From Catenulispora sp. EB89 (GTDB lineage Bacteria; Actinomycetota; Actinomycetes; Streptomycetales; Catenulisporaceae), in contig NZ_JBGCCU010000003.1 of the NCBI RefSeq assembly GCF_041261445.1, forward strand, positions 558,001-622,000: DNA of 64,000 bases. Direction: 5' to 3'. The notes under the pieces were generated by a model. That model did not search any database. It saw only the letters and a program-made list of their open reading frames with translations, and was not told the DNA's origin. Both the position numbers and the translations under genes were made by a program. Positions 51,556 to 58,596 of the stretch are shown one piece after another (within the stretch, counting starts at the first letter, position 1; the number at the start of each line of letters is the position of its first letter).

Positions 51556-52722
51556 CTATATGGCAGCCATCAACGCAAGTAGCCGATCGTTGATCTCCTG
51601 TACCGACGGCTCACTGCGCCAGGGGCGCAGCTCCCGGCCAGCTTGGAAGACGATGTTCAGACCACCACCGCCGCGGGTCAGTTCGACAGCATCGATCGTC
51701 TGGTGCATCGAGGCTTCGGCCTCTTCCCGTTTTCCCTGTCGGATCAGGCTCAGGGTCAGATTGCCGAGCGCGATCGACTGGCTTTTCTTCTTCGCCACGA
51801 GCGCCGACACAGTCCTTCGGAGCAGTGGTTCGGCGAGATCGGGCAGACCGAGGGAGAGGAAGCAGGACCCGGCGAGCCGGTTGAACTCGTTGGGACTGAA
51901 GTTGTCGGCGACGGTGTCGTCGGGCGTGACGCGGTCGAACTGGGCTTCAGCCTTGCCAAGGGCGGCCTCGGCCTTTTTGCGGTCGCCGCCCATCGCGCTG
52001 CCTTCCGCGACGTGCAACAGGCTGAGGCCGGTGAGCGCAGGACTGCACAGACTGGCCACCTCGGCGGCTTCGTCCGCGAGCGTCAGCCCTTTGGCGGCGT
52101 CCTTCTCTCCGTAAAGCGCGACGAAGCTCTTCCGCAGTACCGCGTACGACTCGGTCAACGGGTCCCGGACTTGGCGTGCAACGCTCACCGCCTGGTCGAA
52201 GTACTCGACCGGGCCGTTGTGATCGCGTCGCTGGCTGACGTCCCACACCAGCTGGCCCATGAAGGTCGCGGATTCGGCCTCAACCTCACCGAGTGCCTTC
52301 CGGACCCGGCCGCCCGTGGCACTCTGGCGGAGATACGTGATCTGACCGTGAACATGGCCGGCTACGCCGACGAGCGCAGTCGACGGAGACTTGTCGTACG
52401 ACTCGTCGAGCTGGCGGATCCGTTCGTGAAGATGCGCCACGGCTACCAGATCAACGCTCGACGGATGCTGCAGCACGTAGGCCAGTCGCTCGCCAGGCTC
52501 GCTCTGAATGATGGTGATGTCTTCCAAGAGGGTCTGGAGCTCTTCGGCGGACACCCGGAGCGCACGGGCAAGTTTGGGGCGGAGCCATGCCTGCGGTTCG
52601 TTCTCCGCCGCCTCCCATCGGACGACGGTCGAACGTTCGATGCCCAGGTACAGCGCCAGCTGCTCTTGGGTGAATCCGGCTGCCTTGCGCCGCTTCGCGA
52701 ACTTGACCCGCCTGCTCGCCAC
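51556..52722 (-). CDS. XRE-family regulator with TPR-like C-terminal domain
   Basis: A 388-aa protein. Residues 1-65 are an XRE helix-turn-helix (AGFTQEQLALYLGIERSTVVRWEAAE). The rest is helical with tetratricopeptide-like repeats (ALGKAEAQFDRVTPD, LGLPDLAEPLLRRTVSALV), the arrangement of actinobacterial BldD/Bld-type peptide- or partner-sensing regulators. ATG/GTG at 52722 precedes the HTH directly. Divergent from the plus-strand group at 52951. Confidence 0.85.
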   Translation of the reverse strand: MASRRVKFAKRRKAAGFTQEQLALYLGIERSTVVRWEAAENEPQAWLRPKLARALRVSAEELQTLLEDITIIQSEPGERLAYVLQHPSSVDLVAVAHLHERIRQLDESYDKSPSTALVGVAGHVHGQITYLRQSATGGRVRKALGEVEAESATFMGQLVWDVSQRRDHNGPVEYFDQAVSVARQVRDPLTESYAVLRKSFVALYGEKDAAKGLTLADEAAEVASLCSPALTGLSLLHVAEGSAMGGDRKKAEAALGKAEAQFDRVTPDDTVADNFSPNEFNRLAGSCFLSLGLPDLAEPLLRRTVSALVAKKKSQSIALGNLTLSLIRQGKREEAEASMHQTIDAVELTRGGGGLNIVFQAGRELRPWRSEPSVQEINDRLLALMAAI

Positions 52723-52950: not shown

Positions 52951-53274
52951 ATGGCGTTACCCATCTACGGCTACATGCGGATCGCAACGGACGCAGACTG
53001 TCCGGCCGAGACCGAGCGCGTCACAGCGGAACTGGAGACGTTCGCGCGGCAGGAGGGCTTCTCGCTGGAGGACGTGTTCATCGAACACCTGGGAGCGAAG
53101 AACCCGGCGTTCGATGGCCTGATCGAACGTCTCAAGAGGTCTGAGACCAGGAACGTACTTGTTCCGTCGCTGTGGCATTTCGCTCGGCTTCCCGGACTCC
53201 AAGAAGCCATGCGTCAGCACATTCAGAGCGAGACCGGCGCCCATGTCTGGGTCGTCCAAGGAAAGCGGTGGTGA
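52951..53274 (+). CDS. serine-recombinase-like N-terminal domain, nucleophile lost
   Basis: A 107-aa protein starting MALPIYGYMRIATDADCPAE. The YGYMRI start, the ERVTAELETFARQEGF helix and FDGLIERLKRSETRNVLVPS follow the order of resolvase/invertase N-terminal domains, but the nucleophile position after Arg (normally R-V-S) is Ala/Thr, and there is no DNA-binding C-terminal part. It should be unable to recombine DNA; a binding or regulatory role is possible. SD-like AAGGGG lies 9 bases upstream. First of three plus-strand genes in a row. Confidence 0.6.
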   Translation: MALPIYGYMRIATDADCPAETERVTAELETFARQEGFSLEDVFIEHLGAKNPAFDGLIERLKRSETRNVLVPSLWHFARLPGLQEAMRQHIQSETGAHVWVVQGKRW

Positions 53275-53590: not shown

Positions 53591-54037
53591 GTGTCCCACT
53601 ACTCCCTCACGCTCCCGGGCAGCACAGAGTGCGTACACGAAGCGCGTGTGTGGGTCCGCAAAACGCTTGGCGAGGATCCCGGGGTCGACGACGTGGTGCT
53701 GGTCGCGTCAGAACTCGCCACCAATGCCGTCCGGCACTCTGCCAGTGGTCGCCCTGGCGGCACCTTCACGCTGCATCTTTCCGCCTTCATCGATCGCTGG
53801 CACGTGCGCGTGGACGACGCCGGCGGGCTCAACGTGCCGCGGATCCAATCGGTCGACGACGACCAGGACGAGGCCGGCCGAGGCCTGGCCATGGTCGCCG
53901 GCCTGTCGTTGAGGTGGGGAGTCTTCGGTGACTACCACGCCCGCGGTGTGTGGGCCGAGATCCCGATTCCTGACAACGTCAGCCCCGACGGCGAGAACGA
54001 GGCTTGCCTCCCGCTACTGAGCGACCTACGTGGATAG
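53591..54037 (+). CDS. RsbW-like ATP-binding anti-sigma/serine kinase domain
   Basis: A 148-aa HATPase_c_2 protein. The N box is ASELATNAVRHSAS (about 37-50), G1 region is VDDAGGLNVP and the G2 segment is EAGRGLAMVAGLS, close to RsbW/SpoIIAB-type kinases common in actinobacteria. It would bind ATP and phosphorylate or sequester a partner protein. It forms one transcription unit with the two preceding genes and overlaps the convergent XRE gene by 12 bases. Confidence 0.85.
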   Translation: MSHYSLTLPGSTECVHEARVWVRKTLGEDPGVDDVVLVASELATNAVRHSASGRPGGTFTLHLSAFIDRWHVRVDDAGGLNVPRIQSVDDDQDEAGRGLAMVAGLSLRWGVFGDYHARGVWAEIPIPDNVSPDGENEACLPLLSDLRG

Positions 54038-55216
54038 TCCCGCGTTGCGAGCCAGTTCCAGGACCTTCGGCCTGGAGGTGACCTCGCCAGGGGCTTCGGC
54101 ATACGCGCGACGAACAGCGGCGGCCACGTCAACTTGATGACCGGTCCATTGGCCGTAGAGCCGAGCGACGTCGATCCAGTAGCGCGCACGGCGCTCAGGG
54201 GTCGGGAGCCTCACCGGGTCCAGCGCCCGAGCTGCATTTACCCCGCCCCCGACGTTGCCTAGAGCGTTCTCCATGGACAGCCGGTAAAGCCCTGCCTGCG
54301 CCGGGCCGAAGAACCACATCCCGTGCGCCACGTCCGACGGGAAGCGTGCAGCGATGGACTCCGCCTCGCGCATGTAATCCTCAGCACGGCCTGCATCGCC
54401 AGCGCTGGCGGCGCTGTATCCGGCCGTCAGGAAGAGATGCCCGTAGGTGGCGAAGTCGTCGGACGTGCGTAGTCCTCCGTCAGCGAGCTTGCTCGCGGCG
54501 TCAGCCGTGATCGTGTAGGCGGTGCGAGAGCGGCCGGAGTGCCGCAGGGTCATGCAGCGGCAGTACTCGGCTTCGGCCTGGGCGAGCCGGTCACCAGACT
54601 CGGCGGCGGCGGTCGCCGCGCGATCGGAGGCCAGCAAAGCCAGGTCGTCCTGCCCGGTCTTGATCAGATACTCGGTCGCCAGCGTCCACATGTCCGTGGT
54701 GAGACGCTTATCGCTCCCTGATACCGCCCGATCCATCAAACCCGGCAGACGCTTACCCAGCGCCGCGTGCTTGCCGAGGCGGAAGTCGTTCTGAGCCTTG
54801 GCGAGCTGCGTACGCAGCTTCTCAGGCGCCTCGGTGATTCCGGTGGGCCGGAACATCGCGGCCTCAACGGACAGCCCGGCCGTACCCAGCAGCAGGTCGC
54901 GACGATCCAGCACAGGATTCTCCTCGACGGTTTCGGCTGGTTCGATCCTGCCAGCTGAGCGTTGTCTTGGGAGCGATTTCGCCGCTCGCAACACGCCGAT
55001 CTCAAGTTCCAGCACCGCAGCGACGTGCGGCAGCCAGAACCGGCCCGGCACCACTTTGCCCTTCTCCCAGTTACGCCATTCGGAGCGGTCGAAGGTTGGC
55101 CGAATGGTCCGAAGCTCATCGACCACGTCACGCTGCGACTTATGCAGCTCACAGCGCCGCGCGAGAATCAGCGCAGCAAGATCACTGTGCGTGTCCCCTG
55201 ATTTACCCCCTGCCAT
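54026..55216 (-). CDS. XRE-family regulator with TPR-like domain
   Basis: A 396-aa regulator: a HTH region within residues ~10-65 (CELHKSQRDVVDELRTI, WRNWEKGKVVPGRFW) and helical repeats from about 110 (LLASDRAATAAAESGDRLAQ, AGDAGRAEDYMREAE). It is divergent from the candidate RiPP precursor at 55313 with 96 bases between, so it likely controls that locus. The family usually pairs with a downstream small protein or an RsbW-like kinase, and such a kinase is found here convergently. Confidence 0.82.
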   Translation of the reverse strand: MAGGKSGDTHSDLAALILARRCELHKSQRDVVDELRTIRPTFDRSEWRNWEKGKVVPGRFWLPHVAAVLELEIGVLRAAKSLPRQRSAGRIEPAETVEENPVLDRRDLLLGTAGLSVEAAMFRPTGITEAPEKLRTQLAKAQNDFRLGKHAALGKRLPGLMDRAVSGSDKRLTTDMWTLATEYLIKTGQDDLALLASDRAATAAAESGDRLAQAEAEYCRCMTLRHSGRSRTAYTITADAASKLADGGLRTSDDFATYGHLFLTAGYSAASAGDAGRAEDYMREAESIAARFPSDVAHGMWFFGPAQAGLYRLSMENALGNVGGGVNAARALDPVRLPTPERRARYWIDVARLYGQWTGHQVDVAAAVRRAYAEAPGEVTSRPKVLELARNAGLST

Positions 55217-55312: not shown

Positions 55313-55459
55313 ATGACCACGGTCACCAAGGCGAGGAAGGCAGCGCTGTTCATCGGGCCGGATCGGCTCCGAGTGCAGAGCCTGGCCGAGTCGCACGAGT
55401 ACAAGAAGAAGTCCGGCTCGTCGGACACCGCGCACACGTACGACACCACGGCTCTGTGA
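55313..55459 (+). CDS. 48-aa candidate RiPP precursor peptide
   Basis: ATG 55313 follows GGGAGAG eight bases upstream. The product begins MTTVTKARKAALFIGPDRLR and ends with a Ser/Thr/Asp-rich part (SGSSDTAHTYDTTAL) after KKK. FIGPDRL resembles the Y-x-x-P-x-L leader motif of lasso precursors, with one extra residue before Leu. The next gene, 21 bases on, is an asparagine-synthetase-like ligase. A leader of about 33 residues and a core of about 13-15 is the likely layout; Asp44 would be 9th from Ser36, the usual ring size. Inference from layout, not proof. Confidence 0.55.
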   Translation: MTTVTKARKAALFIGPDRLRVQSLAESHEYKKKSGSSDTAHTYDTTAL

Positions 55460-55480
55460 TCGGGCAGGAGGGCCGCTGAC

Positions 55481-57049
55481 GTGCTGACGTTCCAGCTCAC
55501 GCCATATGCGGACGCCTCCTGGACGCTCGTCGGCGGCGCTTACACCGCCGCCGACGGCGCCAGCCGCGTCACGCCGATCGACCACCCGATGGTCGAGCAC
55601 ACCGCTTACACCGACGGTCAGCGCGTGCTGATCGTGGTCCGGGAGAAGATGGCCGGCTGCGTCGCCGCCGTCCCCGGAGTTCACGGCATCGGTCACGCCC
55701 AATTCGACGAGCGAGCCGCCACGGCGGCCAACTGGCCGGGCGATGTGGTCGTGATCAGTACTGCGCCGAATTTGCCCGTCACGGTGACCGCCGGGGCCGC
55801 ACGAACGACACCCCTGTACCTGTCCGCCAGCCCGGCGAGCCTGCACGGGTCCTGGGACATGGCCGACCTCAAAGGCTTCGCCGGACGCCTACACGCGGTG
55901 GAAGTCGCCCGGCTGTTGGTATTCCGACCGAGGTATTCGACTCAGACCGTCTTCGAGGGCATCCACCGGCTCACCGAGCGCGCGACCGCACACTTTGGCG
56001 GCAGCCTCGTCATCAGCTACCCGCAGCCAGCATTGCACCACGACCCGCGCGAGTTGGCCGACGGCGCCGATGTCCTCGGTGCGTTCGTCGAGCTGCTGCA
56101 CGAGGCGCTGGACGCTCATCCCTGGGATGCGGAATCCACCGTGTTCCACCTGTCCGGCGGGTTCGACTCCGGATGCATCGGCACGACTGCGGCGAAGCGA
56201 CGCCCTCACAAAGTGCGCACCGCCGCACTGCTGATCGACGGTCCCGGCCGGGCTCAACAGGAACGACGTCGCCTCGGCATGCGGGACACGCTGCCGTTCG
56301 CTGACGACGACACAACAGTGGACGCAGCGAGACTGCTGCCGCTGGACCCGGAGTGCACACGGGTGCAGGGCAAGCTGATCAGCCCCTACGAGGAGCCACT
56401 GTTCTATCCGTTCAGCCTGCTCACCCGCGCGCTCGCGGCGAAGGGTGCAACCGCGGTAGTGACCGGTTTGGGAGGCGACGAGCTGGTGGCCCTATCACAG
56501 GAGGAGGCGCCCCATCTGGATCTGAACCGAATGCCGATACTGCCTCCATGGGTCGGGCCCGCCGCAGCCACGCTGCTGGAGTACGCCGATGTTGGCACAG
56601 CGCCACCCGCACCGATCAACTCAATGACCCTGCTGGCGCTGGAGTCCACGGCGCCTCCCCTACTGCGCTCCGGCGTCTGGCCGATCCATCCGTTCGCGTG
56701 GCCGGCGCTGGTCGAGTTCGGGGAGCAGTTGCCGTATGACTGGCGCGACTTCAAGCAGTTGCAGCGCCGACTGCTGGAAAGCCTCGGGCTGGGCATGGAG
56801 GTAGTGCGGCCCGTTCATCGCGAGTCGTTCGCTGAGATCGTCGAACGCGCCCTGACTGGCTCCGGCGTCACGCTGCTCGAACGGATGCTCGCTGACGGCT
56901 CGCCACTATTCGATGATCGCCTCGTCGACCCGGACGCAGTCTCTGCGGCGGTGAAGCGGATGCAGGACGGGAACTACGCAGAAGGCGACGAATCCAAGCT
57001 CCTGGAAGTCGTTCACCTGGACCTGGCGACTCGCGCCTTCCTCAGCTGA
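55481..57049 (+). CDS. asparagine-synthetase-like ATP-dependent ligase, lasso-cyclase-like
   Basis: A 522-aa protein. The PPi-loop motif is SGGFDS at 225-230 (HLSGGFDSGCIG) and a second conserved segment is TGLGGDELVAL near 323. The N-terminal glutaminase half starts MLTFQLTPYA with no Cys at position 2, so it cannot use glutamine, as in lasso-peptide macrolactam cyclases and beta-lactam synthetases. GTG 55481 has CAGGAGGG ten bases upstream. It follows the small peptide gene directly and probably acts on it. No protease or RRE gene is next to it. Confidence 0.82.
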   Translation: MLTFQLTPYADASWTLVGGAYTAADGASRVTPIDHPMVEHTAYTDGQRVLIVVREKMAGCVAAVPGVHGIGHAQFDERAATAANWPGDVVVISTAPNLPVTVTAGAARTTPLYLSASPASLHGSWDMADLKGFAGRLHAVEVARLLVFRPRYSTQTVFEGIHRLTERATAHFGGSLVISYPQPALHHDPRELADGADVLGAFVELLHEALDAHPWDAESTVFHLSGGFDSGCIGTTAAKRRPHKVRTAALLIDGPGRAQQERRRLGMRDTLPFADDDTTVDAARLLPLDPECTRVQGKLISPYEEPLFYPFSLLTRALAAKGATAVVTGLGGDELVALSQEEAPHLDLNRMPILPPWVGPAAATLLEYADVGTAPPAPINSMTLLALESTAPPLLRSGVWPIHPFAWPALVEFGEQLPYDWRDFKQLQRRLLESLGLGMEVVRPVHRESFAEIVERALTGSGVTLLERMLADGSPLFDDRLVDPDAVSAAVKRMQDGNYAEGDESKLLEVVHLDLATRAFLS

Positions 57050-57581
57050 CCAGCTCCGCCGTGCCCGCCGCGAACATGCGCTCCACCTCGGGGAGACGCT
57101 GGGCGCGGCGGGCCATGAGGTACACCAGGTTGTTCTTCCGCTGCACCTCGTGAACCAGCTCGAAGCCCTGCGTGGCGTAGTACCTCATGAGATCGACCTC
57201 GATCGTCCCGCGCCGGACGAACTTCCGGCCCTCGCGCGCAGCCTTGTCCACTGCCCACCAAGCGATCAGCGATCCCGGCTTGGAATGCCGCCACGCCGGG
57301 TCCGTGCAGGTCGTGAACAGGTAGAGGCAGTCCTGCGCGGCTTCGTCGGGCGTCCAGCCCCAGGCCGGTTTGTCGTCGGCGACGGTCGTGCAGCCGATGA
57401 CCCTCTTCCCAGAGGTCAGGACCCACATCGCGGTACCGTCGACTGCCGCCTGGCCGGCAAGGTCATCGATGGCTTCCCGCCAGCTCGGCAAGCCTCGGCT
57501 CTCCATCCACTCTGACCGGGCCGCGATCACGGCTGCCACAGCGGATACATCGTCGGGGCGAGCCCGCCGCATCGCCAACAT
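57042..57581 (-). CDS. GNAT family N-acetyltransferase
   Basis: A 179-aa acetyltransferase: MLAMRRARPDDVSAVAAVIA, the start of the fold, and SLIAWWAVDKAAREGRKFVRR in place of the acetyl-CoA loop. ATG 57581 has GGAGG eight bases upstream. It converges with the ligase gene, overlapping its last 8 bases. Some lasso peptides carry an acetylated Lys, so it might modify the nearby peptide, but a free role is equally likely. Confidence 0.8.
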   Translation of the reverse strand: MLAMRRARPDDVSAVAAVIAARSEWMESRGLPSWREAIDDLAGQAAVDGTAMWVLTSGKRVIGCTTVADDKPAWGWTPDEAAQDCLYLFTTCTDPAWRHSKPGSLIAWWAVDKAAREGRKFVRRGTIEVDLMRYYATQGFELVHEVQRKNNLVYLMARRAQRLPEVERMFAAGTAELVS

Positions 57582-57747
57582 GCGGACACCTCCATGCGGA
57601 ACGGCCTGGTCAACAGATGACCCGAGTCTTCCACGCTTGGCTGCGCCGACGTGCCCGGACGCGGAAGAATCTAGCCTCCGTCGTTGCCAGCTGCCTAGCA
57701 GCGGTCCCCGTACAGACAGCCGCCATGAGGCATGCTGCATGGACTCT

Positions 57748-58596
57748 CTAGTAGGGATGCCAACTACGCGGGCGGTCCGGATCGCGGAGATCAGCCAGCC
57801 GCCTCGTGAATTCGTCGCTGATGACCGGATCGTCAGCGGCCCTCTGCGCTAACCAACACACCATGCGGAGCAGTTGGACCGCCTCGACTGTGGGGAACGC
57901 GGGATCGTCGGAGGGGTCTTCGCCATAGGCGGCGTAGAACGCGACGTACTCGGCCTCCGTATGCCAACCAAGGTCTCGGTACACGGCCGTGATCATCAGG
58001 TCCCAGATGCGGGGCCCGAGACAAAAGCCTTCCAGATCGAGCAGGATCGCCTCGTCCTCGGCGGTGAGCAGCATGTTGCCGACGTTCGCGTCACCGTGGA
58101 GTACGACCTCCTCCCGACCAGCCAGAGCGACCGACAATTCGGCCTCCCGCTGGGCGATCATCGACTCGAGCTCTTCGCGAACCTCGGCATCGAGGCCTGC
58201 CGAGCCGGCAAGCCGTTCGCGCATCCGCGCGAACGGGTCGAGCTTCGGCAGCGCGAGGTATGCGGGAGGCGTCAACTTGTGCAGCTCCCTGAGGACTTCC
58301 GCGAGCCGATCCGGGGTCGTCCACTCGCCGGCCACCGCGTGCCAGAACGTCACCGGGAGCGCGCAGGTGGCGTCCGGCTGCGCAACGTCGAACGGATACT
58401 CGACCGGTAGGCCGGACGAGGTCAGCCACCGCGCAACACGCACTTCACGCTTGGCCGCTGGGAACCGCTCTGTGGAGCGGCCGACCTTGGCGATCAGGCC
58501 CATCTCATCGTGGCTGAACACGGCGCGTTCGCCGATGCGAACAATGTGCCAACCGTCCTGCGGCAACCCCGCACAGGACAAGGCATCAACCAGCAC
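57748..58596 (-). CDS. aminoglycoside phosphotransferase-like kinase (APH family)
   Basis: A 282-aa protein with the APH/choline-kinase fold: VLHGDANVGNMLL (catalytic Asp and Asn, about 170-182), and LLDLEGFCLGPRIWDL for the second metal-binding Asp segment. The nucleotide-binding Lys is in LIAKVGRS. Substrate unknown; many such proteins phosphorylate sugars or small alcohols rather than antibiotics. Start is uncertain; the first in-frame codon is used. Confidence 0.82.
   Translation of the reverse strand: MLVDALSCAGLPQDGWHIVRIGERAVFSHDEMGLIAKVGRSTERFPAAKREVRVARWLTSSGLPVEYPFDVAQPDATCALPVTFWHAVAGEWTTPDRLAEVLRELHKLTPPAYLALPKLDPFARMRERLAGSAGLDAEVREELESMIAQREAELSVALAGREEVVLHGDANVGNMLLTAEDEAILLDLEGFCLGPRIWDLMITAVYRDLGWHTEAEYVAFYAAYGEDPSDDPAFPTVEAVQLLRMVCWLAQRAADDPVISDEFTRRLADLRDPDRPRSWHPY

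Follow-up and report, generated by a model that had tools for sequence, protein, structure and literature searches.

The locus examined here raises the question of what a ligase with an asparagine synthetase fold, but without the glutaminase cysteine, does with the small peptide encoded immediately upstream of it, and whether the pair represents a lasso peptide cluster, a relative of such clusters, or a pathway of a different kind. The window, that is, the entire analyzed stretch of 64,000 nucleotides from Catenulispora sp. EB89, encodes, as the initial annotation had reported, a 48-aa peptide followed by a 522-aa ligase, both on the plus strand, in the same frame and separated by 21 bases. 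Shine-Dalgarno-like sequences precede both the ATG of the peptide gene at 55313 (GGGAG) and the GTG of the ligase gene at 55481 (CAGGAGGG). The features of the locus, in window coordinates, are as follows:

54026..55216, minus strand: divergent XRE-TPR-like gene, a possible regulator of the cassette (sequence-based assignment in the initial annotation)
55313..55459, plus strand: precursor peptide gene, 48 aa, MTTVTKARKAALFIGPDRLRVQSLAESHEYKKKSGSSDTAHTYDTTAL; an ORF with the same architecture lies 5' of homologous ligases in many genera
55346..55378, plus strand: candidate leader recognition motif, precursor residues 12-22 (LFIGPDRLRVQ), marked by the conserved LF and V and by docking in an AlphaFold2 model
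55406..55408, plus strand: codon of Lys32, the proposed lactam nucleophile; Lys(i)/Asp(i+6) in 59/59 distinct precursors
55424..55426, plus strand: codon of Asp38, the proposed activated carboxylate; 59/59 precursors, and proteobacterial precursors too
55442..55444, plus strand: codon of Asp44, the second conserved acidic residue (i+12); Asp at i+12 in 49/59
55481..57049, plus strand: ligase with asparagine synthetase fold, 522 aa, without the glutaminase Cys (PF00733, family alignment, structural model)
Within the ligase, from the family alignment: motifs SGGFDS (residues 225-230), GGDE (331-334) and K425
57042..57740, minus strand: GNAT acetyltransferase (PF13480, 7.5e-05, over the cut-off), which adjoins the ligase in relatives as well
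57748..58596, minus strand: APH-type phosphotransferase, a possible accessory gene (PF01636, 5e-21)

The ligase matches the Pfam Asn_synthase domain (PF00733, 9e-10) and starts with MLTFQ, so that it lacks the glutaminase Cys2, as do all 27 aligned diverse homologs, which vindicates the initial annotation on both the SGGFDS motif and the absence of this cysteine. Across the same 27 members, next to no variation is seen in the SGGxDS PPi loop, GGDE or K425, the last of which is probably the counterpart of the catalytic Lys of beta-lactam synthetase. Assignment to the glutamine-hydrolysing asparagine synthetase B was rejected, given that no member of the alignment has Cys after Met1 and that the TIGR01536 score, 22.8 bits, is below the cut-off of 267. 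The AlphaFold2 model of the ligase (pLDDT 92.6) is closest, among solved folds, to beta-lactam synthetase, carbapenam synthetase, AsnB and TsnB9 (Foldseek 6e-16; VIA Z 19-22, rmsd about 4, about 400 residues), at about 15% sequence identity; a phmmer search of the sequences of solved structures with the ligase yielded no match, and a profile search of solved structures retrieved beta-lactam synthetase at E 0.05. Profile comparison places the ligase family nearer to the lasso cyclases (E 7e-24) than to AsnB (E 1e-5, with an AsnB set of low diversity). In the phylogenetic tree, the family forms a separate clade with 100/100 support, and the match of the ligase to NF033561, the profile of albusnodin-type macrolactam cyclases, is weak (32 bits, cut-off 300). 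The ligase is the sole close member of its family in the 11.9 Mb assembly, and its counterpart in Catenulispora rubra (L001) is 95% identical. It matches phrog_29141, a PHROG of unknown function (3e-169), so that a member of the family occurs in a (pro)virus set; nevertheless, a phage origin was rejected, with no match in phage records or viral contigs. A role as a defense system was rejected as well, with no PADLOC match among the window proteins.

The small ORF found directly 5' of ligase homologs in Catenulispora, Streptomyces and Actinomadura is the same one, with a nearly invariant C-terminus. Ligase homologs lacking a small ORF, which the initial annotation had named as grounds for refuting its proposal, do not overturn it, being mostly fragments, truncations or masked; among the fetched actinobacterial loci, intact ligases almost always have a small ORF of the same architecture upstream. 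Compared with the sister species L022, 9 of the 11 codon changes in the precursor gene are synonymous, and changes between relatives are mainly synonymous too. By this pattern of conservation, the 48-aa peptide gene is evidently far more than a chance ORF. The precursor set was picked by position, leader pattern and a downstream Lys or Arg, with Asp never used as a criterion. After de-duplication, and with the exclusion of an unrelated ORF beside a fragmentary ligase (L090), it comprised 59 distinct actinobacterial precursors, many of which are closely related, so that they do not represent 59 independent cases. The leader motif LF...V(P/Q) is common to all 59, the leader pattern being one of the selection criteria, and LF and V are kept in all aligned precursors; the leader-like first part of a RiPP-like precursor, as initially described, is thus retained beside homologous ligases together with the architecture of the gene.

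Comparison of the core residues in homologous loci, which the initial annotation had recommended, gave a simple pattern. Lys(i) and Asp(i+6), K32 and D38 in the window peptide, are present in 59/59 distinct precursors, and 6 is the sole Lys-to-Asp offset, among offsets 1 to 15, that occurs in every precursor. Gly(i+3) is found in 57/59 and is replaced by Glu in one branch, and the second Asp is located at i+12 in 49 precursors and at i+10 in the other 10, so that only the Lys-Asp spacing is fixed. Five further precursors, which escaped the filter and were recognized by visual inspection (L051, L083, L086, L088 and L116), fit K-x5-D too. The residue before Lys(i) varies (K, D, T, E, R and others), and position -2 from this Lys is mostly Tyr, with Thr in 4/59. 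In a widespread Streptomyces branch (L030-L046, L057-L061), the precursor is 38-39 aa long and of the MNIDELFTGDLITGVPSMDAALLDKMPGGGDNNGDHCS type, and a class I SAM methyltransferase gene overlaps the ligase stop; this cassette hardly differs from species to species, an indication of a conserved role.

Fifteen relatives of the ligase were detected among species-representative genomes. Within the order of the window's genome, relatives are encoded in 36/392 genomes, in the order of genome G994 in 34/299, and in the family of genome G978 in 9/150; in the two actinobacterial orders, about 9-11% of the genomes sampled thus carry the cassette. More distant relatives, with about 27-32% identity, are found in plasmid records of Rhizobium, Bradyrhizobium, Mesorhizobium, Aminobacter and Xanthomonas, where the small upstream peptides, some of them unannotated ORFs chosen by position, contain KGGKPGDMDKLDV, KAPFPNDSANQGYL or KGPFPSDSANEGYL, KVRLPGDSATLMYYL and KRRLPGDSATLTYL, and KPYLGDDSRWYSTQPGG. 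All these peptides keep K-x5-D, but few retain Gly(i+3) or the second Asp. The chance of finding K-x5-D in shuffled versions of single proteobacterial peptides is not small (0.16-0.38), and the joint value for the four proteobacterial lineages, as the product of single values, is about 0.004. One plasmid copy (L153) looks frameshifted. On the Rhizobium plasmids L145, L146, L154 and L157, the peptide-ligase pair lies beside an acyl-homoserine-lactone synthase gene, and on pRL10 of Rhizobium johnstonii 3841, it lies just upstream of nifHDK, with the ligase annotation shortened. Judged by comparative genomics, the pair is a conserved bacterial system, in all likelihood for peptide tailoring, of many actinobacteria and some root-nodule bacteria.

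The locus had initially been called minimal, a description that turns out to be incomplete: the GNAT gene on the minus strand (57042-57740) is a part of the cassette. A GNAT is encoded directly 3' of the ligase, convergently or in parallel, in every locus of the first set and adjoins the ligase in most loci of the enlarged set. Homologs of the window GNAT start near 57581, so that the protein probably consists of about 179 aa (57042-57581). In the enlarged set, the gene 3' of the ligase usually encodes either a GNAT or a class I SAM methyltransferase (PF13649), and the choice goes with the tail of the precursor: a methyltransferase is present in 14/14 loci with GD[HY]C-tail precursors, and a GNAT in 40/45 loci with other tails, the remaining five having neither. 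In one Streptomyces branch, an ABC transporter takes the place of these genes. A link between the GNAT and the extra Lys that precedes the putative ring (K31) was considered and rejected, the GNAT being present also where this residue is Thr or His (L074, L111, L114, L115 and L118). The XRE and APH genes were rejected as core components because their orthologs are kept only in Catenulispora loci. An APH and a GNAT adjoin the ligase in Aminobacter (L152, 5491-6914) as they do in the window (57042-58596), although the APH is not retained in between.

Several loci depart from this layout. In Frankia (L013, 961-2016), ligase residues 100-373 are fused directly to the end of a GNAT and there is no precursor, a decayed cassette; in Streptomyces L048 and L024 (G422), a stop or frameshift interrupts the ligase, with precursor and GNAT intact. 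The divergent member L053 (4772-7795) belongs to a richer cluster with oxygenase-like, peptidase-like (HExxH-type) and methyltransferase-like genes as well as a second small peptide gene. The divergent XRE-TPR gene that had been noted upstream is indeed present on the minus strand of the window (54026-55216); its product has no Pfam match and shows distant similarity in L010 and L015. About 1.3 kb from this gene lies a second HTH-TPR regulator, of the NsdA family (51556-52722, minus strand; NF053720, 130 bits, cut-off 75). A short ORF at 52951-53274, with a match limited to the N-terminal resolvase domain (PF00239, 107 aa), is a truncated recombinase or a stand-alone domain.

We consider it somewhat probable that the cassette produces a RiPP and that the ligase recognizes the leader of its own precursor and joins Lys32 to adenylated Asp38, forming a seven-residue macrolactam on the uncleaved precursor. 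The first step would be direct binding of the leader motif LF...V to the ligase, in which case a separate RRE protein would not be needed. Given that precursor and ligase are in one frame, read-through of the TGA gives a single chain from the window DNA, and this chain was modeled with AlphaFold2 using unpaired precursor and ligase rows, the tether being artificial. In the resulting model, leader residues 11-20 are docked at pLDDT 94 and residues 21-30 at 81, with a strand at residues 19-21; because the peptide contains no other confident strand, the partner of this strand is probably in the ligase. Residues 34-53 have pLDDT below 50, and the model does not place the Lys-Asp core in the active site. 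The model suggests that the leader docks directly on the ligase. The ligase, devoid of glutaminase activity, would then adenylate the side-chain carboxylate of Asp38, which would be attacked not by ammonia or the N-terminus of a released core but by the epsilon-amine of Lys32. The lactam between the two side chains would close on the uncleaved precursor, so that a lasso leader peptidase would not be needed either. The side chain of Lys32 is the likely nucleophile because this Lys is invariant, there is no protease or cleavage motif, and the preceding position varies; a fixed Lys-Asp spacing, with variable, flexible residues in between and an adenylating ligase next door, is the expected trace of a Lys-Asp lactam. 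Against this reading stands the second conserved Asp, to which it assigns no role. The GNAT would subsequently acetylate the peptide, for tailoring or self-protection, and in other branches a methyltransferase would replace it, together with a different tail (GDHC). Leader removal and export would come later, via unlinked functions.

It is unlikely, in our assessment, that the product is instead a small lasso or lariat peptide, for which an unlinked protease would cut before Lys32 and the alpha-amine of this Lys (residue 1) would be joined to Asp38 (residue 7), with the last ten residues as the tail. The proximity of the ligase to lasso cyclases in the profile comparison argues for such a product, a ring of 7 with tails of 6-10 residues would be a plausible size for a small lasso, and GNATs are known in lasso clusters. 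However, the partners that this route would require are missing. True lasso loci, retrieved with NF033561, served to build HMMs for B1 and B2. These models match 18/20 and 20/20 control lasso loci, respectively, rates that lean high because the seeds were drawn from these control loci, and 0/118 family loci (0.94 Mb in total, including some overlapping copies of one place). Genome-wide, there is no match in the window's genome to PF13471, the B2 leader peptidase, or to PF05402, the PqqD-like B1/RRE, profiles that recognize real B2 and B1, respectively, in positive controls. With B1 and B2 absent and the positive controls detected, a canonical lasso cluster was rejected. The observation that no leader protease or RRE protein adjoins the pair thus holds, and the suggestion that the known ones are encoded elsewhere in the genome does not. 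A protease outside the known lasso partners could free Lys32 first. Furthermore, no cleavage motif is apparent, given the variable residue before Lys and the Thr at -2 in only 4/59 precursors, and the invariance of Lys is not required if its alpha-amine alone reacts. Of the initial idea of a lasso-type cyclase, what stands is the relationship of the ligase to lasso cyclases; a strict lasso assignment fails on the absent B1/B2, the unconserved Thr(-2) and the NF033561 score.

Returning to the proposed side-chain lactam, the identity of the amine can also be questioned: Asp38 could be activated for ammonia, a free amino acid or a small molecule, with Lys32 serving as a recognition residue or the GNAT site. 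In favor of this, small substrates are used by AsnB, beta-lactam synthetase and TsnB9, enzymes with the same fold, and a methyl- or acetyltransferase is linked. We nevertheless regard it as quite improbable: the ligase lacks the glutaminase Cys that would supply ammonia, a role in recognition would not by itself call for a strictly fixed Lys-Asp spacing, and Lys is still invariant in branches without a GNAT. Just as doubtful is a function, compatible with either chemistry, in which the ligase product is not an antibiotic but a pheromone, the signal for the adjoining HTH/TPR regulator: such genes recur upstream of the cassettes, the core is strikingly invariant between genera, and the Rhizobium pair lies beside AHL synthase genes, but the regulators are not orthologous between loci and Pfam backs only some of them.

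Under the favored Lys-Asp lactam, the cassettes may represent a separate, undescribed RiPP class, characterized by built-in leader recognition, a seven-residue ring made on the uncleaved precursor, and interchangeable tailoring enzymes matched to the tail; we put this forward tentatively, as a serious possibility. Such a class would cover the spread in Actinomycetota and the plasmid-borne members in rhizobia and Xanthomonas. No description of the precursor-ligase family was found in the open-access full text searched.

Among the known systems, beta-lactam synthetase, carbapenam synthetase, AsnB and TsnB9 resemble the window ligase in the two-domain fold and the adenylating PPi loop but act on small molecules, whereas the window ligase has a linked ribosomal precursor, which speaks against a substrate of the beta-lactam synthetase type. 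Graspetides are similar in the proposed product type, a side-chain lactam between Lys and an acidic residue, and in these peptides the leader stays on during cyclization; however, graspetide ligases are ATP-grasp enzymes, and the window ligase has the asparagine synthetase fold (PF00733 only), so that the cassette is not a graspetide locus. The lasso systems of albusnodin (AlbA/B/C/T), lariocidin and triculamin, like the window cassette, combine a small precursor, an adjacent asparagine-synthetase-type ligase without glutaminase, and a GNAT. The GNAT of the albusnodin cluster acetylates Lys as a tailoring step (PMC9266682), and a self-resistance function has been reported for those of triculamin and lariocidin (PMC13352647). 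All three systems have B1/B2, encoded in the lariocidin cluster as LrcB1B2 (PMC11451635), and the window cassette is without both; the ring of lariocidin links the N-terminus of Ser1 to Asp8, whereas the cassette has a fixed Lys/Asp pair six apart. As in a lasso cluster, the precursor lies beside the ligase; a B2 peptidase, a B1/RRE protein and Thr at the penultimate leader position, with the core counted from Lys32, are lacking. By definition, then, the cassette falls outside the lasso clusters, although it is related to lasso systems. The usual lasso cyclase acts after a peptidase and an RRE partner. A related family of ligases that seemingly needs no such helpers, modifies intact precursors and forms predictable K-x5-D rings would offer a simple one-enzyme tool for lactam stapling and would point to a hidden natural-product family overlooked by mining based on B1/B2 or RRE; if the proposed chemistry is true, it is a third route to lactam RiPPs, beside the lasso cyclases and the ATP-grasp ligases of graspetides.
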